DNA of 64,000 nt from Sulfuriflexus mobilis (GTDB lineage: Bacteria > Pseudomonadota > Gammaproteobacteria > AKS1): the NCBI RefSeq assembly GCF_003967195.1, contig NZ_AP018725.1:1364001-1428000 (forward strand). Direction: 5' to 3'. The number at the start of each line of letters is the position of its first letter. Position 1 is the first letter of the stretch. Both the position numbers and the translations under genes were made by a program. Below the pieces are notes generated by a model. The model saw only the letters and a program-made list of their open reading frames with translations, made no database searches and was not told where the DNA came from. Positions 3,600 through 19,949 of this stretch are shown here, piece by piece.

Positions 3600-5735
<2,136 letters not shown>

Positions 5736-5926
5736 AGGCCCAGGCGTCGCCCGGCAAGCCTGTCTATCCGTAAAACTACCTACCACCCTGCATCCCGGGT
5801 TTGAAAGCTATCGCCTTTTCACACCGGGATAAGGCTTATTCAGCCACGTTCAGCATACCTCGAGGATATTTAAGGGAAAATTGCCTCGCACCCACGCGGG
5901 TAAAAGCCCGGTTTGATGCGCTTTAT

Positions 5927-5940
5927 TTGATATAGGTCAT
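5927..5940. promoter_or_regulatory. FNR/ANR-like box upstream of the hibernation factor gene
   Basis: TTGAT-N4-GTCAT resembles the FNR/ANR consensus TTGAT-N4-ATCAA, with a perfect left half and a weaker right half. It lies about 75 bases before the hpf start. A closely similar box, TTGAC-N4-GTCAT, with the same flanking bases, is found at 18149-18162, supporting it as a real conserved element. Oxygen-dependent control of a ribosome hibernation factor would make sense; this is inference. Confidence 0.45.
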
Positions 5941-5954
5941 GGACGATCAGCCTT

Positions 5955-5992
5955 GCCAGGTAGCAGACTGTTTATGATAATGATTACCTGGC
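5955..5992. repeat. Inverted repeat in the hpf leader
   Basis: GCCAGGTA (5955-5962) and TACCTGGC (5985-5992) are perfect complements separated by 22 bases and end 10 bases before the GGAGG ribosome site of the hpf gene. The hairpin could affect translation or be an operator. The earlier part of the 5736-5926 gap holds only a weak 7-bp inverted repeat (5792-5798 with 5824-5830). Confidence 0.35.
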
Positions 5993-6012
5993 TGTAACAA
6001 ATGGAGGTTGGC

Positions 6013-6582
6013 ATGAAGATCCCTTTACAGATCACCTTTCGAAATATGGAACCCTCTGATGCCGTTGAGGCAAAAATCAGGGAAAAGGCCGCGGGCCTGG
6101 AACAGTACGCCAAGGATATAATGAGTTGTCGTGTCATTGTCGAGGCCCCGCACAAACACCACCATAAAGGCAATATCTACGCCGTTATCATCGATGTCAC
6201 CCTGCCGGGTAATGAAGTTGTCGTCGATCGAAACCCCGGTCAGGATCATGCCCATGAAGACGTTTATGTGGCCATCAGGGATGCCTTTAATGCGGTGCGC
6301 CGCCAGCTTGAAGATTATCTCCGGCTGCGCCGGAACAAGGTAAAGACCCATGAAACCCTGCCACATGGGGCTATCAAGGAACTCTTCCCGGAACAGGATT
6401 ATGGCGTTATCGATACGCAGGATAGCCGGGATATATATTTTCATCGCAACAGCGTGATCAATGCGGATTTCGACAAGTTAAAAGTTGGCGATAGCGTACA
6501 TTTTAGCGAAGAGATGGGCGAGGAGGGGCCGCAGGCCAGCACGGTCCACGTGGAAGGCAAACATCACGCCGCTATAAAGTAA
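6013..6582 (+). CDS. HPF/RaiA-type ribosome hibernation factor fused to a cold-shock domain
   Basis: The N-terminal half (about residues 1-105) is an S30AE/HPF domain, which in the family binds the decoding centre of idle ribosomes. The C-terminal half, with GAIKELFPEQDYGVI and DIYFHRNSV, is a cold-shock (OB-fold) domain with the usual aromatic FPEQDYG and IYFH elements. Length is 189 residues. The start is set by the ribosome site: the upstream ATG at 6001 is part of the GGAGG sequence that serves the ATG at 6013 with a 5-base spacer, so 6013 is chosen. A fragment resembling its first codons and upstream region occurs at 18149-18241. Confidence 0.92.
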   Translation: MKIPLQITFRNMEPSDAVEAKIREKAAGLEQYAKDIMSCRVIVEAPHKHHHKGNIYAVIIDVTLPGNEVVVDRNPGQDHAHEDVYVAIRDAFNAVRRQLEDYLRLRRNKVKTHETLPHGAIKELFPEQDYGVIDTQDSRDIYFHRNSVINADFDKLKVGDSVHFSEEMGEEGPQASTVHVEGKHHAAIK

Positions 6583-6659
6583 CAAAAACAACTTAGCGAA
6601 TAGTGGCGGGTGGGTAATCGACGGCTTCGCCGTACTTCTTTCTGAGCAAGAGGCTATGT

Positions 6660-7913
6660 ATGTCGGATATCAAAGACCCGTCACTGGCAACTACGGGGGC
6701 GTCACGGATCGAATGGGCGCTCAGGGAGATGCCCGTTATTCATGGCCTGATGCAGAGTCTTGCTGACGAACGCCCACTGGAAGGTATACGCATCAGTGGC
6801 TGTCTGCATATCACAACCGAAACCGCGAACCTGGCGCGCACCCTGAAGGCGGCCGGTGCAGAGGTCGTCTTGTGTGCGAGCAACCCGCTTAGCACCCAGG
6901 ACGATGTGGCTGCGGCACTCGTATCCAAATACGAGATCCCTGTCTATGCCGTTCGCGGTGAGAGTACCGATGTCTATTACCAGCATATCCAGGCGGCATT
7001 GGATCACCGGCCGCAGCTGACCATGGACGATGGCGCCGACCTCGTCAGTGAACTACACAAGACTCGCACGGATTTACTCGACGGGATGATTGGCGGCACC
7101 GAGGAGACCACCACGGGTGTCATTCGCCTGCGCGCCATGGCGCGTGACAAGGCGCTCAGGTTCCCGGTCATCGCCGTCAACGACGCCATGACCAAACATT
7201 TATTTGATAACCGTTATGGCACGGGGCAGAGTGCACTCGACGGTATCATCCGCGCCACCAACATCCTCCTGGCCGGCAAGACCTTTACGGTAGTGGGCTA
7301 TGGCTGGTGTGGTCGCGGCGTGGCCATGCGCGCTGCGGGTCTGGGTGCCAACGTCATTGTCACCGAGGTGGATGCCCTGCGTGCACTCGAGGCGAGTATG
7401 GATGGCTACCGTGTCATGCCGCTTATCGATGCGGCCATTCAATCCGACTTTATTCTCACGGTTACCGGTAACAAACATGTTATCGATGAAACACATATGC
7501 GTGTGATGAAGGACGGTTGCGTACTGGCCAACGCCGGACACTTTAATGTCGAGATCAATATCCCGGTGCTTGAAGGGCTGAGTGTCAGCAAGTCACGGCC
7601 ACGACCGATGGTGGATGAATACCGGCTGGCGGATGGTCGACACCTGTGCCTGCTCGCCGAGGGCCGTCTGGTTAACCTGGCGGCGGCAGAGGGGCACCCC
7701 TCTGCCGTGATGGACATGAGTTTCGCCAACCAGGTGTTGTGCGCCATCTACATGTTTCATAACCGTGACACGCTGCAAGCTGCCGTGCACGCCGTCCCGC
7801 TCGAAATCGATGAGGAAATTGCACGACTGAAACTCACTGCCATGGGCAGACGTATCGATCAACTCACGGCAAATCAGCGCCACTACCTGTCTTCGTGGCA
7901 AGAGGGAACGTGA
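6660..7913 (+). CDS. ahcY: Adenosylhomocysteinase (S-adenosylhomocysteine hydrolase)
   Basis: Splits S-adenosylhomocysteine into adenosine and homocysteine with NAD+ as bound cofactor, keeping methyltransferases free of product inhibition. The NAD-binding stretch [19 protein letters not shown] is clear, as are [10 protein letters not shown] and [15 protein letters not shown], typical family blocks. At 417 residues it is of the short class common in archaea and some bacteria, without the insertion of longer proteobacterial enzymes. AAGAGG precedes the ATG by 6 bases. The stop is one base from the pcm start, so the two methyl-metabolism genes are probably one operon. No SAH riboswitch was recognised in the 77-base leader. 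Confidence 0.93.
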
Positions 7914-11023: not shown

Positions 11024-11416
11024 TCAAGGGGTCAGAACACTTGAAATCGCAGCATCTTTGATACGCTCTGCTCTGACGATGGCGTTACAAGCAAGTGAAT
11101 GTGATGGGTCATGAGCACATAGGCATGAATCGCGCAGCCGTTTTCCTCGGCGGCATGGGCAAGCGCATCAAGATATTGCTGATAATCGTCTGCGCAATAA
11201 AAGACGGCTTGTCGATTATTGCCACGTTGAATGACGACCAAGGATGGGCTAATACCGCGGGTGCATGGACGGACAGGAGCGGTGAACGTGTAAGGCTTGT
11301 CCAGGCACCACGATTCCGGGTAGTCGAGGTATCTCACCCTCCCTGGTAAGATTGATATGGCTTGTTACTCGATTAAATCAAAGTCTCAGGGCAAATCAAG
11401 TGTTCTGACTCCTTGA
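11024..11416 (-). mobile_element. Decayed REP-associated transposase element with terminal inverted repeats
   Basis: The ends at 11024-11044 and 11396-11416 are inverted copies agreeing at 20 of 21 positions; the shared core is GTCAGAACACTTGA. Between them lies a truncated Y1 (IS200-like/RAYT) transposase frame. The element is about 390 bp, far smaller than an intact one. It separates the slipin operon from the lipoprotein genes. Confidence 0.6.
11032..11337 (-). pseudogene. REP-associated tyrosine transposase (RAYT) fragment
   Basis: The frame contains VIQRGNNRQAVFY and HAYVLMTHHIHLLVTP, hallmarks of Y1 transposases; HIH corresponds to the metal-binding HUH motif. After SVSKML the frame runs straight into the terminal inverted repeat and stops, so the C-terminal half with the catalytic tyrosine region is gone. 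The N-terminus is also poorly matched and its start is uncertain. It cannot be an active transposase. Confidence 0.75.
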
Positions 11417-11438: not shown

Positions 11439-11768
11439 TTACCAGCAAAGCTGTTGGGCAGTACCATTAATGTCATACGTTGTCCAGCAAGTAAGCGTAT
11501 CCTCTACCCCCTGCTTCGCCTTCTTCTGAGTAGTTCTTGTACCCTCTTTTAGTGTCACAACAGTTGTTGGATTGGTGATACCACAATCACCCGTGCAGGG
11601 TGTGCCAGGGTTTCCATTCTTATCTTTAAGTTCATAGGTACCGTCCTCATAGAGAGTGATCTTGCCAGCCTTTTTCTTGGTGGCTTCGCTGCCGTCACCA
11701 CTGCAACCGGTGAGTAGGGTCAGCAGGGCAAAGGCGAGTATAGATAAGGATAGGGTGTTTTTCTTCAT
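11439..11768 (-). CDS. Small lipoprotein, tandem copy B
   Basis: 109 residues. Lipoprotein signal with lipobox LLTGCSG (Cys about residue 22), so probably exported and lipid-anchored. A lysine-rich linker leads to KITLYEDGTYELKD, then two cysteines (PCTGDC) and the C-terminal block CWTTYDINGTAQQLCW, which ends the protein. The paralogue at 11906-12280 has the same signal, the middle YxDGTYEL element and an identical C-terminal block. GGAG lies 7 bases before the ATG. Family not recognised. It is the last gene of the minus-strand cyclase/barrel locus. Confidence 0.85.
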   Translation of the reverse strand: MKKNTLSLSILAFALLTLLTGCSGDGSEATKKKAGKITLYEDGTYELKDKNGNPGTPCTGDCGITNPTTVVTLKEGTRTTQKKAKQGVEDTLTCWTTYDINGTAQQLCW

Positions 11769-11805
11769 TTCATGCTCCCGTGTATTTAGTCATTATCATG
11801 GTTAG

Positions 11806-11842
11806 GGTGTTAATCAAACGTTAACGCCATCCTTAGCTAAAT
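11806..11842. repeat. Duplicated tail of the beta-barrel gene
   Basis: Bases 11806-11837 are identical to 12317-12348, the last 28 bases of the barrel gene and just beyond. Here the copy no longer belongs to a gene. It marks the upstream edge of the tandem duplication that made the second lipoprotein gene. Confidence 0.7.
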
Positions 11843-11905
11843 TGTAGGTTGCCAGTAAAGCTTCAAGGAGCTAGACACGTTCAAGTGTTATGATCCTTTT
11901 ATTTT

Positions 11906-12280
11906 TTACCAGCAGAGTTGTTGAGCTGTTCCATTAATGTCATACGTTGTCCAGCAAGTAGAACCCTTGGTTCTCAGCAATGGGATCGTGACGATTTGTT
12001 CAATACCAACATCATTGGGCTTCTTATTACCCTGGAAGCCTTTACATTTTCCACTTGAGCCTGGCTTAATGTTGCAGCTTGGGGCGGCAACTCCTTCAGT
12101 ATTGGCCAATTCATAGGTGCCGTCTGCATAGACGAGTATCTTTGCAACGACAGGGTTCGATGGAGGGGTGCTACTACCGTCACCACCAGCGTTGGCCTGC
12201 TTAATGAGCCCGCTGCAACCCGTGAGCAGGGTCATCACGGCAAAGACGAATATGGATAAGGATAGAGTGTTATTTTTCAT
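11906..12280 (-). CDS. Small lipoprotein, tandem copy A
   Basis: 124 residues from the ATG at 12280, which has GGAG 7 bases upstream; the frame is open to 12328 but that extension would overlap the barrel gene end and precede the signal peptide. Lipobox LLTGCSG (Cys about residue 23). A linker of about 20 residues is followed by KILVYADGTYELAN, two cysteines, and the C-terminal block CWTTYDINGTAQQLCW, identical to the neighbour at 11439-11768. It begins 40 bases after the barrel gene and is probably co-transcribed. The paired end cysteines suggest disulfides in the envelope. Function unknown. Confidence 0.85.
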   Translation of the reverse strand: MKNNTLSLSIFVFAVMTLLTGCSGLIKQANAGGDGSSTPPSNPVVAKILVYADGTYELANTEGVAAPSCNIKPGSSGKCKGFQGNKKPNDVGIEQIVTIPLLRTKGSTCWTTYDINGTAQQLCW

Positions 12281-12320
12281 TAGGTACTCCCATTTTTTAG
12301 TCATCATCGTGTCTATGGTG

Positions 12321-15300
12321 TTAATCAAACGTTAACGCCATCCTTAGCCAAATACTCCGATCGTGGTAAATCGTCGGCGGCTGGGCCAGCCCAGTGCGGA
12401 AGTTCGCATCGCGGTAATTAAAGTCCTCTTCGAACAGGTTGCGGATCTCGAGATTGATCAACCCCTGGCGTTTCGGCAACCGGTAACCGAGGCGTGCATC
12501 AAAGATCCAGAAGTCATCTTCATCACGTCGTGAGGTGGTTGGCGAGAGCGGTTGGATGAGCTCCTGGTCATAGTAGGTCGCGGTCAGGCCGCCGGACCAG
12601 CCGTTCGGGTAATGCAGGTTCACACTCATGGGCAGCCGGTGCGTGGTCAACTCGCGTGGTTCACCTATATCCGATGCCACGGTAATTTCTCGCTCGAAGT
12701 CCTCGAACTCATACTCGGCGGCGAGAGATACAAACTTATGCGGCGTCCAGTACAGGTAGGCGCGGTGCGCGTATTCAGTCTGGTCCTCATCTCGAACATT
12801 ACTGCCGGTAGTTAATGGAACATCTAGGTCTCGCTTGGTTAGTTCCAATCCGGTATAAACTTGTTTATTAAAGCGATGTTCCAAAGCAATGCCGTAGTTT
12901 TTTGCATCCGTTGTATTGGGGTCATCGAAGAACTGGTTAAAACCCGCGACCTGGGTCGGTTCAAGTGTTTGGTTACCAGTCAGTGGCCGTTTCAGGGTGC
13001 GAAAGCCAGCGGCACGTAGACGGGTCTTTGGTGATACTTCCCATTGCAAGCCGAGTTTAGGGTTCGTTTGCTGAGTAGCAAGAACTGGGTCATCAAGGTC
13101 ATCATGACTCAGGCCGAGAGTCAGATTCACATTATTAAAGGCGCGCCACTGCGAATAGGCATAGGCATTGTCCGTCTTTATGTCGAACTTGTTATCAGAT
13201 GGCCCGCCTGCGAGCACGATGCCGCCCGAAGTTACTTGAAAAATATTCTCATTATCGAGCGCAGCGCGGTAATTTCCAGCGCCGATGATGAGTTCATACG
13301 TATCCTGTTTGCGAATATATTGCAGCTCGGCGGTACGTGCATTCGAGTCCTCTGTGCGTACATCCTCACCAATAACCGGCCCAAATGGACCAAATGGTGA
13401 AAGCTGGACATTCTCCTCCCGCGTAAACAGCGTATCACGGTAGATAAACGAACCGAGCAGGTGCGAGTTCGGGCTCAGCTGGTTGTGGTAACCAAGGCGG
13501 AAGGTGGTCTCGTCACGCGTTTCGCGCCTTACCTCCGAGAAGTTCTCAGGGTCGAAGCGCAGGCGCAGGTCACCATTTTCTCGTTCACTGGCTTTGAGTT
13601 CAAACTGCAGGCTCTGCTGCGGGGTGATGGCGGTCTGGATGAAGAAGTTGACGATGTCATGCTGGAAGTCGTTATTATCGCGGAAGCCGTCGGTCTGGAA
13701 GTGGTACTGGCCGACACTGATCGAGGTGTTATCGTAGAGTTCCGAGTAAACAACTTCATCACCGGCCGTGTTGTTGTTGCCGAGCAGGGCCGAGACCTGC
13801 CAGCGCGACTGGTTGCGCGCAAACAGCGGGTCGTATTCATTAAAACTGGCGCCACCCGGGCCGGCATTCGGCTGGATACCGAGTTCACTCTCGGACAGGT
13901 GCGGCGCGACCGGGTTGATGTTGAGCGGGGCGAGCAGTTGCGATTGCAGCAACTCACTAACGCGACCGATCTCATGCCGTGGCCGGTTGGCATACGACTC
14001 GGCGAGGAAGCGGTGTGCGGAGTGGTTGGCGAAATCCTCGTTGATCGAGCCGAAGGCCTCTTGTTGGGCGAGCTGGTCAAAGCCGAGGTCTTGATAGATG
14101 CGGGCCTGGCTGGCGCTGCGCGCGGCCTGGTCCTCATCGAGTAACAGTTTGGAGCGATACACGGCGCGGTTGTCGTTCAAGGCTTCGGATTTTTGCAGAT
14201 CCTCAAGGGCCTCGACCGGGCGATTTACGCTTTGTTTCTGGATGGCGCTGTAGAACCAGGCCGTCGGGTCGTTCGGGTCCAGCGCTTTGGCCATGTCGAA
14301 CTGACTCGTGGCGACCGTATCACGTTTTTCTTCGTAATAGGCCTTGCCGAGGTAACTGCGGATTAAGGCATTGTTCGGATCCAGGCTGGCGGCATATTCG
14401 ATCTCGCGGCGGCCATCTTCCAATTCGCCGCGGCGGATCTTCGCCAGGCCGAGGCCAAGGCGAGCCAGCGGCTCGGCCTGATCGCGTTCAATGGCCTGGT
14501 TAAACGAGGCGATGGCCGGCTCTATCTTTAATTGGGTCAGGTTGGCAAAGCCGAGCACGCTGTGGGATTTGGCGACAGCCGGATTGAGGGCGACGGCTGT
14601 TTCGGCAGCGGCCTGCGCCTGCTTGAGATCGCCCACCATTAAATACAGTTCGGCGAGGCGTGCCTGGGCGAGTGCGTTGTTGGCATCGAGGCCGGCGGCG
14701 GCCTGCATGGTCTCGAGTGCCCCGGGTACATCAAAATTGGCCTGCTGCGCATAGGACAGGGCCAGCCGGGCGACGGCACTTTGCGGATTACTGGCCACGG
14801 CCTGTTGCGCCCGTTGCAGGGCCATGGCCTTGTCATTATTGACCACGGCAATGATTGCCTGCAGCGCCAGTGCCTCGGTGTGTTGCGGTTGTTTGTCCAG
14901 CAGCGTGCTGAGGCCTTGTTGGGCCTCGCTAACACGGCCCGTGGCGAGTTGCTGTGCGGCCTGATTGATGGCCGCCTGCGGCTGCCCGGCATCAACGATG
15001 GCCGGGTAGTAGAGGGCCCACTGCACGGCATCGCGTGGTCGCACATGCAGTTTCAACACGGGTGCGGTGCCTTTTAGCGCCAGCGCGGTCTGGCCGGGGT
15101 TGAGCACGAGTTCGCCCTGGTCATTCGTGGCCCTGACCACGCCCTCGAAGACGGTGACCTCTGCTTGCCCGGCCTGTACGGCGACGACAAACTCGGTGCC
15201 CTCAATTGAGGCGTTGACGAACGGCGTGACGATCTTGAAGGCCTGTTTGACGCGGCTGATAAAGTGGGCGATGCCTGCCTTCAGGTCGAGGCTCGAGGGC

Positions 15301-15596
15301 TGCTCCAGTGACAGGTTGGTAAAGGTGATGGTGCTGTGCTGGTCGAGGCGCAGGATGGTGTCGTTGTTCAGCACCAGGGCGGCGCGGCTGTTGCTGCCGA
15401 CGCGGACGACATCGTTTTGACAGAAGCTGTCACCGAGGTTAACGGCCTGCCAGGTTGCCCCCGTTGCTGCGGCGACGCGCAATTCGACCGTACCCTGCAC
15501 GGAGACGGCCTTGGCCACCCCTTGCTGACAGCTCTCGGCATGTGCCAGTGTTGGCCATAACAGCCAGATTGAAACTACAATTCCCCAGTACCGCAT
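12321..15596 (-). CDS. FecR domain - TPR - outer-membrane beta-barrel fusion protein
   Basis: 1091 residues. A signal peptide ending AHAES (about 1-21) is followed by a FecR-like domain (about 28-180; GSNSRAALVLNNDTILRLD and a TPFVNASIEGTEFVV block). TPR repeats follow (about 190-545), many with a recognisable LDPNN/LNPAVA turn. From about 610 the sequence alternates beta strands with charged loops and ends like a TonB-dependent receptor (LINLEIRNLFEEDFNYRDA, then a strand ending ALTFD). No plug domain or TonB box is seen, so FecR plus TPR replaces the usual N-terminus. TPR followed by a barrel also recalls PgaA-like exporters. It lies 74 bases downstream of the CHASE2 cyclase, same strand. 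Substrate unknown. Confidence 0.85.
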   Translation of the reverse strand: MRYWGIVVSIWLLWPTLAHAESCQQGVAKAVSVQGTVELRVAAATGATWQAVNLGDSFCQNDVVRVGSNSRAALVLNNDTILRLDQHSTITFTNLSLEQPSSLDLKAGIAHFISRVKQAFKIVTPFVNASIEGTEFVVAVQAGQAEVTVFEGVVRATNDQGELVLNPGQTALALKGTAPVLKLHVRPRDAVQWALYYPAIVDAGQPQAAINQAAQQLATGRVSEAQQGLSTLLDKQPQHTEALALQAIIAVVNNDKAMALQRAQQAVASNPQSAVARLALSYAQQANFDVPGALETMQAAAGLDANNALAQARLAELYLMVGDLKQAQAAAETAVALNPAVAKSHSVLGFANLTQLKIEPAIASFNQAIERDQAEPLARLGLGLAKIRRGELEDGRREIEYAASLDPNNALIRSYLGKAYYEEKRDTVATSQFDMAKALDPNDPTAWFYSAIQKQSVNRPVEALEDLQKSEALNDNRAVYRSKLLLDEDQAARSASQARIYQDLGFDQLAQQEAFGSINEDFANHSAHRFLAESYANRPRHEIGRVSELLQSQLLAPLNINPVAPHLSESELGIQPNAGPGGASFNEYDPLFARNQSRWQVSALLGNNNTAGDEVVYSELYDNTSISVGQYHFQTDGFRDNNDFQHDIVNFFIQTAITPQQSLQFELKASERENGDLRLRFDPENFSEVRRETRDETTFRLGYHNQLSPNSHLLGSFIYRDTLFTREENVQLSPFGPFGPVIGEDVRTEDSNARTAELQYIRKQDTYELIIGAGNYRAALDNENIFQVTSGGIVLAGGPSDNKFDIKTDNAYAYSQWRAFNNVNLTLGLSHDDLDDPVLATQQTNPKLGLQWEVSPKTRLRAAGFRTLKRPLTGNQTLEPTQVAGFNQFFDDPNTTDAKNYGIALEHRFNKQVYTGLELTKRDLDVPLTTGSNVRDEDQTEYAHRAYLYWTPHKFVSLAAEYEFEDFEREITVASDIGEPRELTTHRLPMSVNLHYPNGWSGGLTATYYDQELIQPLSPTTSRRDEDDFWIFDARLGYRLPKRQGLINLEIRNLFEEDFNYRDANFRTGLAQPPTIYHDRSIWLRMALTFD

Positions 15597-15670
15597 AGAG
15601 CCCCCATAGCTATGACCCTGGTCGTGTAGTCTCCACGTCCATCCCTGTCAGTCGGTTTACCTTGCTTGTT

Positions 15671-17890
15671 CTATTTCTTATCTAGTGTGATAACGCCGTC
15701 CCATTCAGCGGGGGGCGGGTTATGTTTATATTTCTTACAGTATTGTAAATAAAACTGGGCGGCCTTGTCAGTAGTTATTTGTCGACTCATGTCGCCAAAC
15801 AGCTCCATGGCCTCGTCCCACTGGCGATTTTTCCAGGCCAGCAGGGCCTGGGCAAAGCGATCACAGTGCTGTTTGCTCGCGGCATCGAGGTCCTCTTCAC
15901 GACACAATAACTCAAACAGGTGGATGGCACGGGTCTTGCCGGCAAGCCGGAAATGCCCGAGTTCACGCATGGCAATGCCTTTTACCCCTTGAATTACCGG
16001 TGCGGAGGCGATCAGGTAGGTGCCGAGCCTTTTATTCAGGTGCTCGATGCGGTTCGAGGTGTTGACGATATCGCCAACCGCACGGTACTCGAAATGGTCC
16101 ATGGCGCCGACATTGCCGAGCATGATCTCACCGGCATGCAGGCCGATGCGCGTCGGCAGGACATGTGCAGGTCGGTCAGCCGTGACGGGGCCATTCATGA
16201 GACTGACGATCTCGAGTGCGGCGGCGCAGGCCTCGCTGCGCAGGACGACATCAGACTGCGGTGCCGACCAGATCGCCAACATCTCGTCACCGACGACGTC
16301 GGAGATAATGCCGTTATGGCGGCGTACCGGTTCGAATAACAGCTTGTAGTAGTTATTGATCAGCACGCTGAGTTGCTCGGGGGGGATCTGCTCGGCCATC
16401 CGCGTGTACTGTTCTGCATCGCTTGTCAGGCAGATGCCATACATTTGTTGTTGCTTCGCCTCGATATGGCCGGCATTCCTGGCGATCTTGTTGACCACGC
16501 TCTTGGGCAGGTAAAAACCAAAGGCCTCACGAATTTGCTCGCGTTCACGTCGCGTTTCCAGGTATTGCCAGAGGATGGCGACAAACAGTGCAAACGGAGT
16601 CTGTATGAGCAGCGGCACCACCCACGGCAGCCACAGGTAGTGATCGCGAAACACAACATAGCAAATGGCGGCATACGCGCCGGCCATGGCGAGGGCACTG
16701 ACAACGGCCGGCACGGTGGGTAGGGCACGGCTCAGGCTTGCGATAACAAAGCCATAAAGGAGGATAAGGGCGATAAAGTTCAGCGGGGTCAGTGGCCGGA
16801 TACCCTGGTGGTGCAACAGATTGCTGAAGGCGGTTGCGGCGATCTCGACACCACTCAGGTCGAGGCCGTTAGACTGCGAAAAGACCGTATAGAAGTTATC
16901 TTTCTGTTCCGGTTGCAGGAACTCCGAGAAGCCAACGAAGACGACCTTGTTCGTGAGGTCGGGTACCCCGGCCGAGTCGGGGTCGATGAACTTATAATAA
17001 GGAATAGTCGTGACTGTGCGCGGCGGGCCATAAAAATTCAGATAGTGCTGGTTTGGCCCGCTATACATGTTCAACAGTGCCTGCAGGCCGCTGTCTGATG
17101 GGCTGATCAATGCTGGGCCCAGTTCGGGCCGGGTATTGAACAGGTAGCGCAAGGCACTGACGACACGGCGCAGCTCGCCGTCTGCGAGCAAGTCCTCGGG
17201 CGTGGCGGGCAGTGCCTGTGCCGATTCCGGCAGGCGTTCGGCGATGGCCTGCCGTAAGGCCGGGTAATCCTGCAGCGTATACAACTGCAGGGCGAGCGCA
17301 GGCAGGTTGGGCACCTCGCCCGCCGGGACACGAAAGGTCCAGAACTTTGTGACCTTGTGCGGGTATTTCAACAGGGCAAACGGTGCCAGTGCCAGGGGCG
17401 CCTCGGCGATCACGCGGGTGGGCGGCACAAGCCGTTCGATATTGATGGTCTGGCTCATGTCCTCATGACTGGGCAGTGTGCCTTGTTCGGAAAGGATATC
17501 GCGCTGCAGGTGGGCAAACAGAATCACGTTACCGGCACGGCGGATGGCGGCGGCCAGTGCCCGATCCTGTTCGGCCCCGCGATCCTCTTTGAAGAAGATG
17601 TCTATGACAATGGCCTTTGCACCGCCTGCACGCAGTTTGTCAATAAGCTGTGCATGCAACTGGCGCGGCCACTTTGCCGGGTGGTTCGGCAGGCCGAAAT
17701 GATCAGAGGAGACCTTGTCTATGGCGACAATGACACTCTCCGCCGGGGCGACGATCTTGCCGCGTAGCCCGAACAGTACATCCAGACCGAGGTTTTCCTC
17801 GAGCTCAAAGCCTGCAAACAGGAAATACATCATGGTACCTAACAGGGCGGTGACGCTGCCGAGGCTGATGGCTTTGAGCGCTCGATGCAT
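15671..17890 (-). CDS. CHASE2-sensor class III adenylate/guanylate cyclase
   Basis: 739 residues. TM helix at about 8-28, a large periplasmic CHASE2 domain (about 30-360; VIVAIDKVSSDHFG and GGAKAIVIDIFFKED are typical), three TM helices (about 368-440), then a cytoplasmic cyclase domain (about 485-650) and a 75-residue C-terminal helical tail. The two metal-binding aspartates are present (D491 in LTSDAEQYT, D535 in VVGDEMLAIW), as are N610 and R614 for the transition state. The usual purine-selecting lysine four residues before D535 is an aspartate (D531), so substrate choice is unclear. CHASE2 and FecR domains often occur together, and the next gene carries FecR. Confidence 0.92.
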   Translation of the reverse strand: MHRALKAISLGSVTALLGTMMYFLFAGFELEENLGLDVLFGLRGKIVAPAESVIVAIDKVSSDHFGLPNHPAKWPRQLHAQLIDKLRAGGAKAIVIDIFFKEDRGAEQDRALAAAIRRAGNVILFAHLQRDILSEQGTLPSHEDMSQTINIERLVPPTRVIAEAPLALAPFALLKYPHKVTKFWTFRVPAGEVPNLPALALQLYTLQDYPALRQAIAERLPESAQALPATPEDLLADGELRRVVSALRYLFNTRPELGPALISPSDSGLQALLNMYSGPNQHYLNFYGPPRTVTTIPYYKFIDPDSAGVPDLTNKVVFVGFSEFLQPEQKDNFYTVFSQSNGLDLSGVEIAATAFSNLLHHQGIRPLTPLNFIALILLYGFVIASLSRALPTVPAVVSALAMAGAYAAICYVVFRDHYLWLPWVVPLLIQTPFALFVAILWQYLETRREREQIREAFGFYLPKSVVNKIARNAGHIEAKQQQMYGICLTSDAEQYTRMAEQIPPEQLSVLINNYYKLLFEPVRRHNGIISDVVGDEMLAIWSAPQSDVVLRSEACAAALEIVSLMNGPVTADRPAHVLPTRIGLHAGEIMLGNVGAMDHFEYRAVGDIVNTSNRIEHLNKRLGTYLIASAPVIQGVKGIAMRELGHFRLAGKTRAIHLFELLCREEDLDAASKQHCDRFAQALLAWKNRQWDEAMELFGDMSRQITTDKAAQFYLQYCKKYKHNPPPAEWDGVITLDKK

Positions 17891-18261: not shown

Positions 18262-18372
18262 ATGGATGAAGAAACCAAAGTATTGCTGCGTAGTATCGCC
18301 CATCACCTGAAGTGGGTGATTGTCCTGTTGGTGGCCATCGTGGCCTTGTTGGTCACTTATACCACGCAATGA
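18262..18372 (+). CDS. 36-residue single-span membrane peptide, copy 2
   Basis: Starts MDEETKVLLRSIAHHLKW, then a single hydrophobic helix, ending TYTTQ. It differs from the 10909-11019 peptide at only A/V, I/V, S/T and E/Q, although 12 of 111 bases differ. Its stop overlaps the start of the following kinase gene (ATGA), so the two are probably translated together, whereas copy 1 follows the slipin gene. This gives the peptide two different operon contexts. Cytoplasmic N-terminus with a membrane anchor is the likely topology; function unknown. Confidence 0.75.
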   Translation: MDEETKVLLRSIAHHLKWVIVLLVAIVALLVTYTTQ

Positions 18373-19949
18373 ATACTATCCAAGCACAGCAGCCTGCGCT
18401 TATTCGTTCAATGATGCAGCCTGCGCTTTACGGGGCCCCCGTAGAGAAGTGTCAGTTGATCGAAACCCATATCTCCTGGGTCATCCTGACCGGGCCTTAT
18501 GCCTACAAGATTAAAAAGCCGGTTAACCTGGGTTTTCTGGATTTCTCAACGTTAGAAAAACGCCATCTCTATTGCGATGAGGAAGTGCGCCTCAATCGCC
18601 GTTTGGCAGCGGATATCTATCTGGAGGTGGTGCCGATCACCGGTTCGGCAGAGCAGCCGTGTCTGGCGGGCAAGGGCGAGGTAATTGAATACGCCGTGAA
18701 GATGCTGGAGTTTCCACAGCAGATACAACTGGATCGACTGCTCGACGCAGGTGGGTTACAGGGCAGGCATATCGATGCGATTGCGACCATGATCGCCGAT
18801 TTCCACAACAATATAGCCGTGGCCGATAAGAGTATGGTTTACGGCTCACCGGAGCGGATTCTCAAGCCGGTTGTTGAGAACTTCACCCATATTCGTGAGC
18901 AACTCGGTCAGCAGCTGGAAACGTACGCATGCTCACCGATACTGGATGCCCTGCAGCAATGGAGTGAAAAAAGTTTTCGTGATCTACGGCCGTTGTTCGC
19001 CGCACGCAAAGACGGCGGTTATATACGCGAATGCCATGGTGACCTGCATTTGCGCAACCTCGCCTGGATTGCTGATGCCCCGCTGGCCTTTGATTGCATC
19101 GAGTTTAATCCTGATCTGCGCTGGATTGATGTCATCAGCGAAGTCGCCTTCCTGACCATGGACCTGCAGGCCCGGCAACAACCCGGGCTGGCGCAGCGAT
19201 TTCTGAATGCCTATCTTGAAAAGACGGGTGACTATGCGGGGGTGCGTGTCCTGCCGTTTTACCTGCTTTACCGCGCCATGGTACGGGCCAAGGTGGATGC
19301 CATACGTGCCTGCCAGGCCGGTATTACAGATGAGGAAAAGGCCGAAGCCGAGGAGGGGCTGGCGGATTATTTACGACTCGGGCAATCGTCTATACAACCG
19401 CGCAGTCCAAGGTTGATGATAACCCGCGGCATGTCCGCCTCGGGTAAAACCTCATTGACACAGCCCCTGCTGGAGGCCCTGGCGGCGTTGCGGATACGTT
19501 CCGATGTGGAAAGAAAACGCCTGTTTGGTATTGAGGCAGAGCAGGCCGCTCATGCCGAGACCGGAGCAGGGATCTATACGGCTGAAGCGACGCAGCGTAC
19601 CTATAATAAGTTAGCGGAACTCGCCGGCGACGTCATTGATGCCGGCTATCCGGTAATTATTGACGCGACCTTTCAGAAGTATGAACAACGCGAACGCTTC
19701 AGGCAGCTGGCAGAGGCAAAAAAGGTGCCCTACGTGATTCTTGAATTTACCGCCTCGGCCGAAACCCTGCGGCAACGTATTGTTAGCCGGGAGAAGGGCG
19801 CCTCGGATGCGGACCTTGCCGTGCTTGAACAGCAGATGAAACATTGGCAACCACTCAGAGACGATGAGCATGTTCATGCCCTGAAGATTGATACCGAAAC
19901 GGCGCCCAATATGTCCTTACTTGCTGAACAGGTCGCACGTATGGCGTGA
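18369..19949 (+). CDS. Bifunctional aminoglycoside-phosphotransferase-like / P-loop ATPase protein
   Basis: 526 residues. The N-terminal two thirds is an APH-like fold: ISWVILTGPYAYKIKKPVNL near the start, then the catalytic-loop-like HGDLHLRNLAW and FDCIEFNPDLRWIDVISEVAF. The C-terminal third has a Walker A, TRGMSASGKTSL (about residue 355), and resembles small nucleoside-type kinases, with VIIDATFQKYEQRERFRQL. This fused family is widespread in Proteobacteria; no substrate is established, and drug resistance should not be assumed. The ATG at 18369 overlaps the stop of the small peptide. A longer frame from 18312 would overlap the whole C-terminal half of that peptide and is rejected. Confidence 0.9.
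   Translation: MNTIQAQQPALIRSMMQPALYGAPVEKCQLIETHISWVILTGPYAYKIKKPVNLGFLDFSTLEKRHLYCDEEVRLNRRLAADIYLEVVPITGSAEQPCLAGKGEVIEYAVKMLEFPQQIQLDRLLDAGGLQGRHIDAIATMIADFHNNIAVADKSMVYGSPERILKPVVENFTHIREQLGQQLETYACSPILDALQQWSEKSFRDLRPLFAARKDGGYIRECHGDLHLRNLAWIADAPLAFDCIEFNPDLRWIDVISEVAFLTMDLQARQQPGLAQRFLNAYLEKTGDYAGVRVLPFYLLYRAMVRAKVDAIRACQAGITDEEKAEAEEGLADYLRLGQSSIQPRSPRLMITRGMSASGKTSLTQPLLEALAALRIRSDVERKRLFGIEAEQAAHAETGAGIYTAEATQRTYNKLAELAGDVIDAGYPVIIDATFQKYEQRERFRQLAEAKKVPYVILEFTASAETLRQRIVSREKGASDADLAVLEQQMKHWQPLRDDEHVHALKIDTETAPNMSLLAEQVARMA

Follow-up and report, generated by a model that had tools for sequence, protein, structure and literature searches.

The window analysed here is a 64,000-nucleotide stretch of the Sulfuriflexus mobilis genome (contig NZ_AP018725.1, positions 1,364,001 to 1,428,000). 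Its minus strand carries a unit of four genes, which encode a nucleotide cyclase with a CHASE2 sensor domain, an outer-membrane protein that joins FecR, tetratricopeptide repeats (TPR) and a beta-barrel, and two small lipoproteins. Both the sole CHASE2 gene and the sole FecR gene of the 3.11-Mb, one-contig genome are found at this locus. The unit probably forms a receptor-cyclase system that spans the envelope, comparable in kind to NsrA-CyaK of the legume symbiont Sinorhizobium meliloti. The genes and their parts are given below, with the evidence in brackets.

15671-17890, minus strand: CHASE2 nucleotide cyclase, first gene in the unit, 739 amino acids, predicted in the inner membrane (Pfam)
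16757-17830, minus strand: CHASE2 sensor domain of the cyclase, residues 21-378, predicted periplasmic (Pfam)
15935-16426, minus strand: class III cyclase domain, residues 489-652, with the purine pair D531/R603 (alignment to 5m27)
12321-15596, minus strand: FecR-TPR-barrel outer-membrane protein, 1091 amino acids (Pfam, 63-sequence alignment, AlphaFold)
15051-15515, minus strand: FecR domain, beta-rich, residues 28-182 (model, Pfam, VIA-align to 4m0n)
13932-14975, minus strand: TPR superhelix, residues 208-555 (Pfam TPR models, model helices)
12327-13811, minus strand: plug-less 22-strand barrel, residues 596-1090 (model strands, Foldseek and VIA-align)
12909-12992, minus strand: conserved 28-residue loop KRPLTGNQTLEPTQVAGFNQFFDDPNTT linking strands 13 and 14, predicted to face the cell exterior (conservation 0.77)
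11906-12280, minus strand: small lipoprotein 1 of a barrel-linked cysteine-rich family, 124 amino acids (family hidden Markov model, HMM, E 2.7e-16)
11802-11835, minus strand: copy of the barrel gene 3' end TAAGGATGGCGTTAACGTTTGATTAACACC, duplication breakpoint (sequence, alignment)
11439-11768, minus strand: small lipoprotein 2, tandem duplicate of lipoprotein 1, 109 amino acids (family HMM, E 3.6e-6)

The cyclase and barrel genes are separated by 74 nt, the barrel and lipoprotein 1 genes by about 40 nt, and the two lipoprotein genes by about 137 nt. The short distance behind the barrel gene suggests co-transcription of lipoprotein 1. A scan of the window for promoters (sigma-70-like sites) and terminators gave results at chance level. 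The open reading frames (ORFs) and Pfam domains agree with a preliminary description of the sequence, which placed the CHASE2 cyclase gene directly before the 1091-residue FecR-TPR-barrel gene.

In the cyclase, Pfam identifies CHASE2 at residues 21-378 (E 6.5e-32) and Guanylate_cyc at residues 489-652 (E 6.8e-9). The enzyme is expected to be active, since its catalytic residues are conserved among 64 homologues: the metal-binding D491 and D535 in all 64, N610 in 63, and R614 in all 64. The purine pocket is of a different kind from the canonical adenylate type, which is absent, as D531 and R603 replace K and S/T. These two residues align with the purine-selecting Lys and Thr of the photoactivated cyclase 5m27. 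The same Asp/Arg pair occurs in 39 of the 64 homologues, followed by Asn/Arg (7) and Glu/Arg (5), with a canonical Lys in only one. An acid at the first pocket position is reminiscent of the Glu of guanylate cyclases, and we know of no characterised cyclase with an Asp/Arg purine pair. The preliminary description proposed cyclic AMP (cAMP) or cyclic GMP as the signal; with Asp/Arg in place of the Lys/Thr pair, the nucleotide product cannot be called from the sequence.

The barrel protein contains FecR (PF04773, E 3e-16) at residues 62-155, plus several TPR models of Pfam. Its AlphaFold model has a pLDDT of 89.4 and a pTM of 0.86. Sixty-three full-length homologues align along the protein, and FecR and TPR precede the barrel in every one of them. 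A barrel misjoined to a foreign N-terminus, a doubt raised in the preliminary description, is ruled out by this fusion, which is kept across phyla, and by the single confident model. TonB-dependent receptors head the Foldseek matches of the model, with FpvA the best (E 8.5e-17). FpvA, FecA, and BtuB are among the receptors matched by Foldseek and VIA-align, and VIA-align gives Z scores of 17-20 against PirA, FoxA, BtuB, and other receptors. No Pfam plug or TonB-receptor model matches the protein, even at E 1. The 22-strand model, the receptor matches, and the missing plug bear out the earlier likening of the barrel to a TonB receptor without its plug. The FecR part aligns with the solved FecR-like anti-sigma factor 4m0n (VIA-align Z 17.6, root-mean-square deviation 2.0).

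The protein thus shares the 22-strand barrel with TonB-dependent receptors but lacks their N-terminal plug, and shares the FecR fold with FecR anti-sigma systems, except that its FecR is fused to the barrel and does not stand alone. Ferric citrate signalling by FecA-FecR-FecI likewise combines a receptor-type outer-membrane barrel with a FecR fold. In contrast, the window system fuses FecR to the barrel, has neither plug nor sigma factor, and has a cyclase as its output. An ordinary TonB-type nutrient importer, with the neighbouring cyclase merely co-regulated, is a very improbable alternative. The 22-strand TonB-receptor fold is in line with it, but the lack of a Pfam plug, the FecR and TPR before the barrel in 63 of 63 homologues, the co-variation of CHASE2 with FecR and TPR described below, and the precedent of NsrA as a signal receptor all speak against import.

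The best-conserved pieces of the barrel protein are the C-terminal TPRs, the segment 543-557, and the outer-side 28-residue loop (the GFNQFFDD region). Conservation of this loop between strands 13 and 14 is 0.77, against 0.08-0.19 in loops 7-8, 9-10, 11-12, 15-16, 17-18, and 19-20. The loop may fold into the barrel lumen and help to close the pore. Near the start of its FecR part, the protein has Cys23, just ahead of the modelled domain, and Cys59; each is shared by 90% or more of the barrel homologues. No cysteine was seen in the corresponding part of the S. meliloti protein, and the pair may form a disulphide or a redox switch.

The combination of a FecR-TPR-barrel protein with a cyclase was not recognised in the preliminary description, yet the same architecture is present on pSymB of S. 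meliloti. A 1219-amino-acid FecR-TPR-barrel ORF is followed there directly by a CHASE2 adenylate cyclase. When compared by hhalign, the window-family profile matches this ORF with a probability of 99.9 (E 1.4e-33, 955 columns, 21% identity), and the match spans columns 45-1073, which comprise FecR, TPR, and barrel. We take the ORF to be nsrA, presumably SMb20775 next to cyaK, which fits the length of 1219 amino acids and the barrel in the C-terminal half. The cyaK gene is SMb20776 (PMC5498481). NsrA is needed to perceive a protein signal, CyaK is the cognate cyclase, and Clr is the CRP-type output (PMC7529298, PMC10463352, PMC13001267, PMC5498481). Genetically, NsrA and CyaK act as receptor and cyclase in a single pathway, in which a signal activates Clr through cAMP (PMC7529298, PMC10463352, PMC13001267).

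NsrA-CyaK-Clr thus resembles the window unit in having a FecR-TPR-barrel protein beside a CHASE2 cyclase, and probably also in its CRP-family output. The window unit is nevertheless a separate variant, which differs in its gene order, its Asp/Arg pocket, its conserved FecR cysteines, and its small cysteine-rich protein. In S. meliloti the barrel gene comes before the cyclase gene, while in the window the order is reversed. The pocket of CyaK is Lys/Ser. A small cysteine-rich gene is missing from the S. meliloti locus, both between the paired genes and behind them, whereas the window has two, and the FecR cysteines conserved in the clade of the window protein appear to be absent from the S. meliloti protein.

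Further FecR-CHASE2 pairings have been reported. Campylobacterota have a CHASE2 adenylate cyclase cluster with such a pairing, in which FecR and TPR are separate proteins and a cAMP phosphodiesterase is added (PMC9239204); the likeness is drawn from its description only. The Burkholderia BiofilmReg operon, like the window, pairs a FecR-domain envelope protein with a CHASE2 receptor, but it has LysM-FecR in place of the TPR-barrel, and its output is a CHASE2 histidine kinase with a response regulator (PMC5192318). In magnetotactic bacteria, a CHASE2 cyclase follows mtxA (PMC4439547). The architecture is therefore known in kind. What is new in the window and its relatives is the small cysteine-rich family bound to the locus, the Asp/Arg cyclase pocket, and the spread over at least four phyla.

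When 84,980 species genomes were searched with the barrel alignment, 361 of the candidates that were scored proved to be relatives, and the best 80 were kept for locus analysis. They come from Gammaproteobacteria, Nitrosomonas, Nitrospirota, Thermodesulfobacteriota, and Myxococcota, so that the receptor-cyclase unit occurs in at least four phyla. In 55 of the 75 loci with room, the gene immediately upstream of the barrel gene, and on its strand, encodes the CHASE2 cyclase. The cyclase is further upstream in seven loci, four of which have a tandem second barrel gene in between, and downstream in another seven, so that 69 of the 75 have a CHASE2-cyclase match. An even draw of 369 genomes from the class of the window, which avoids a choice of best matches only, contains the barrel protein in 44. 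Among the matches listed, and with the lists compared by eye, a CHASE2 gene is present in 43 of these 44 genomes versus 159 of the 325 others. Adjacency within the class was measured on 34 fetched loci, 33 of them with room, and the cyclase is immediately upstream of the barrel gene in 25. A chance neighbourhood of the two genes is ruled out, as adjacency is far above chance in both the best-80 loci and the even draw. The preliminary description held that rare adjacency would speak against its signalling proposal; the adjacency is common, and its conservation agrees with an envelope-to-cytoplasm signalling unit with a FecR-CHASE2 link.

A CRP-type regulator of one subfamily lies near the unit in 18 of the 34 even-draw loci, and in 17 aligned loci a dedicated CRP-type regulator beside the cyclase has a conserved cyclic-nucleotide cassette (GELAL...RSA). 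In locus L061, the gene at 4974-7190 joins CHASE2 to a SpoIIE-type phosphatase in place of the cyclase, next to the barrel gene and a small gene. This swap of the output suggests that CHASE2 is the coupling part.

The co-variation of the domains was studied with pairwise distances over 49 loci, as p-distances and, in brackets, corrected for multiple changes. FecR and CHASE2 distances correlate with r 0.80 (0.72). Within single proteins the values are lower: 0.61 (0.42) for CHASE2 and the cyclase domain, and 0.52 (0.45) for FecR and the barrel. The partial correlation of CHASE2 with FecR, given the cyclase, is 0.71, versus 0.10 for the cyclase with FecR, given CHASE2. TPR distances behave towards CHASE2 as FecR distances do. 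The FecR-versus-cyclase correlation difference is significant in the bootstrap over all loci (0.10-0.48). FecR, together with the TPR arm, is by these distances the likely contact with CHASE2.

The reading of the unit as a receptor-cyclase system is based on domain architecture, gene order, FecR-CHASE2 co-variation, catalytic residues, and the CRP linkage in relatives. From these we infer, provisionally, a physical FecR-CHASE2 contact, a direction of signalling, and what is said here of the nucleotide and of the lipoproteins. The plug-less barrel in the outer membrane would report either a ligand outside the cell or the state of the barrel itself. The periplasmic TPR arm and FecR domain would extend as far as the inner membrane and meet CHASE2 there, and contact or release may switch the cytoplasmic cyclase. 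The cyclic nucleotide would then act on a CRP-family regulator, which in many relatives is encoded beside the cyclase. In the genome of the window, this target is presumably the general Crp. About 11 stretches of the genome match CRP-type proteins, the closest being the Crp beside a speD-like gene (37% identical). The genome also has a class I adenylate cyclase and one further class III cyclase elsewhere. The small lipoproteins may be accessory envelope parts, most likely a ligand, plug, or modulator of the barrel or FecR side.

Several observations weigh against this mechanism. In the window, no dedicated regulator of the CRP type is encoded next to the cyclase, and no convincing CRP-box was found between the regulator and cyclase genes of relatives (the best of 15 cases tested had a shuffle fraction of 0.04). 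In six of the 75 loci with room, the stretch covered contains no cyclase gene. The bootstrap difference is not significant without Nitrosomonas (95% interval -0.04 to 0.47). Shared ancestry also feeds the distance correlations, so co-variation supports the contact of FecR and TPR with CHASE2 but does not prove it.

Both window lipoproteins have the lipobox LLTGC and a C-terminal Cys-Trp, with likely starts at ATG 12280 and ATG 11768. The preliminary description was correct in calling them paralogous and on the same strand, and they are tandem duplicates; its term cysteine-ended does not hold, as both end in Cys-Trp. About 30 nt of the barrel gene 3' end are repeated after the lipoprotein 1 gene, in the gap to lipoprotein 2. 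This copy indicates that lipoprotein 2 arose by a tandem duplication whose unit starts within the final codons of that gene. The C-terminal motif is C-x14-CW, with 14 residues between the cysteines. In the AlphaFold model of lipoprotein 1, which is weak (pLDDT 67.5, pTM 0.30), Cys108 and Cys123 flank a hairpin at the C-terminus.

A small ORF lies directly behind the barrel gene in many loci. A profile from 24 seeds found 38 ORFs at E <1e-3 across the loci searched, each directly behind a barrel gene, and a family member is present by HMM in 30 of the 71 loci with room. A profile from gammaproteobacterial seeds alone matches members from Thermodesulfobacteriota (E 4e-13) and Nitrosomonas (E 1e-9) in the same slot. 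Among 12 whole genomes searched, the family was found in eight, and in all eight always beside the CHASE2/barrel locus. The earlier report of lipoproteins downstream stands but was incomplete, because a small-protein family recurs at this position and is thus not incidental. Typical C-termini are C-x12-C-W with a central Gly, or GSHYYL..GG.YY.IPLPH. No convincing match to the family was found in Pfam, NCBIfam, or the PDB. About half of the members have a lipobox, and a crude pattern test finds no obvious signal sequence in 14 of the 38. Among the latter are the members of L039, L042, L047, L054, L056, L090, and L100, whose relatives are lipoproteins. In other loci, the slot is filled by unrelated small ORFs, and no small-family gene was detected in the nearest relative of the window locus (L106, barrel 60% identical).

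In a rival reading, the barrel would export or display either a polymer or the small cysteine-rich protein, in the manner of PgaA or BcsC, with the cyclase monitoring export. We regard this as improbable. The order of TPR and then barrel matches PgaA and BcsC, and a small envelope protein gene is directly downstream in many loci, with HMM support in the 30 of 71 mentioned. However, the NCBIfam PgaA and BcsC export porin models score 18.5 and 16 bits, far below their cut-offs of 366.65 and 858, the barrel resembles 22-strand receptors, the adjoining genes include no polymer synthase, and signal sequences are not obvious in the 14 members from the crude test. The receptor-type barrel and the low PgaA and BcsC scores likewise leave the sensing of an exported polymer, as suggested in the preliminary description, without support.

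The small lipoprotein may instead be an output of the pathway, a member of its regulon and not a part of the sensor, which is possible though rather doubtful. In S. meliloti, smc02177 (FecR-domain) and smc02178, near cyaD1/clr, are Clr targets with periplasmic products, and signal perception survived their loss (PMC5498481). The extra copies and unrelated small ORFs in the same slot of other genomes are also in line with an output. On the other hand, this reading has no CRP-box support, the sole promoter scan being that for sigma-70-like sites in the window, and the lipoprotein gene lies close behind the barrel gene. A more specific form of the receptor-cyclase model would have the small cysteine-rich protein as a self-encoded ligand or gate of the barrel, coupled via FecR and CHASE2 to an Asp/Arg cyclase with a product other than cAMP. 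This form is unlikely.

The genes beside the unit that were scanned with Pfam are kinase-like, NfeD, SPFH, and HD, with no sigma factor among them. A fusion of APH-like and AAA_33 kinase domains (18312-19949) is divergent from the cyclase gene and occupies the side where many relatives carry the CRP-type regulator. A transposase ORF of the IS200/Y1 type, at 11032-11337 on the minus strand, lies just behind lipoprotein 2 and is truncated (PF01797, E 2.4e-7). It is flanked by perfect 17-nt inverted repeats TCAAGTGTTCTGACYCC (11028-11412), with a third copy of the repeat at genome position 2817459. A viral or plasmid origin of the unit was rejected, as viral contigs contained no relatives and the plasmid matches were rhizobial FecR-type proteins. 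The barrel protein is missing from the three further genomes of the genus, and the distribution of the unit is therefore patchy. Several diverged barrel copies are frequent within Nitrosomonas genomes, and tandem barrel gene pairs occur in L064, L072, L074, L086, L090, and L113, mostly from Nitrosomonas. A recurring Nitrosomonas ORF family (EEHLAKL...FI...VGVLDHSFLG) lies on the opposite strand by barrel loci (L064 12070-12813, L086 10362-11114, L103 9705-11283).

CHASE2 is a widespread receptor domain. To our knowledge, its signals are not known, and NsrA is its sole well-studied outer-membrane partner. The results suggest FecR-TPR-barrel proteins as a general input of CHASE2 cyclases in Gammaproteobacteria, Nitrosomonas, Nitrospirota, Desulfobacterota-type bacteria, and Myxococcota. 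They also bring to light a family of small proteins that has no annotation, and an unusual pocket in the cyclase. If the small protein is indeed the ligand or gate of the barrel, the locus would encode together an envelope ligand-receptor pair that is conserved across phyla.

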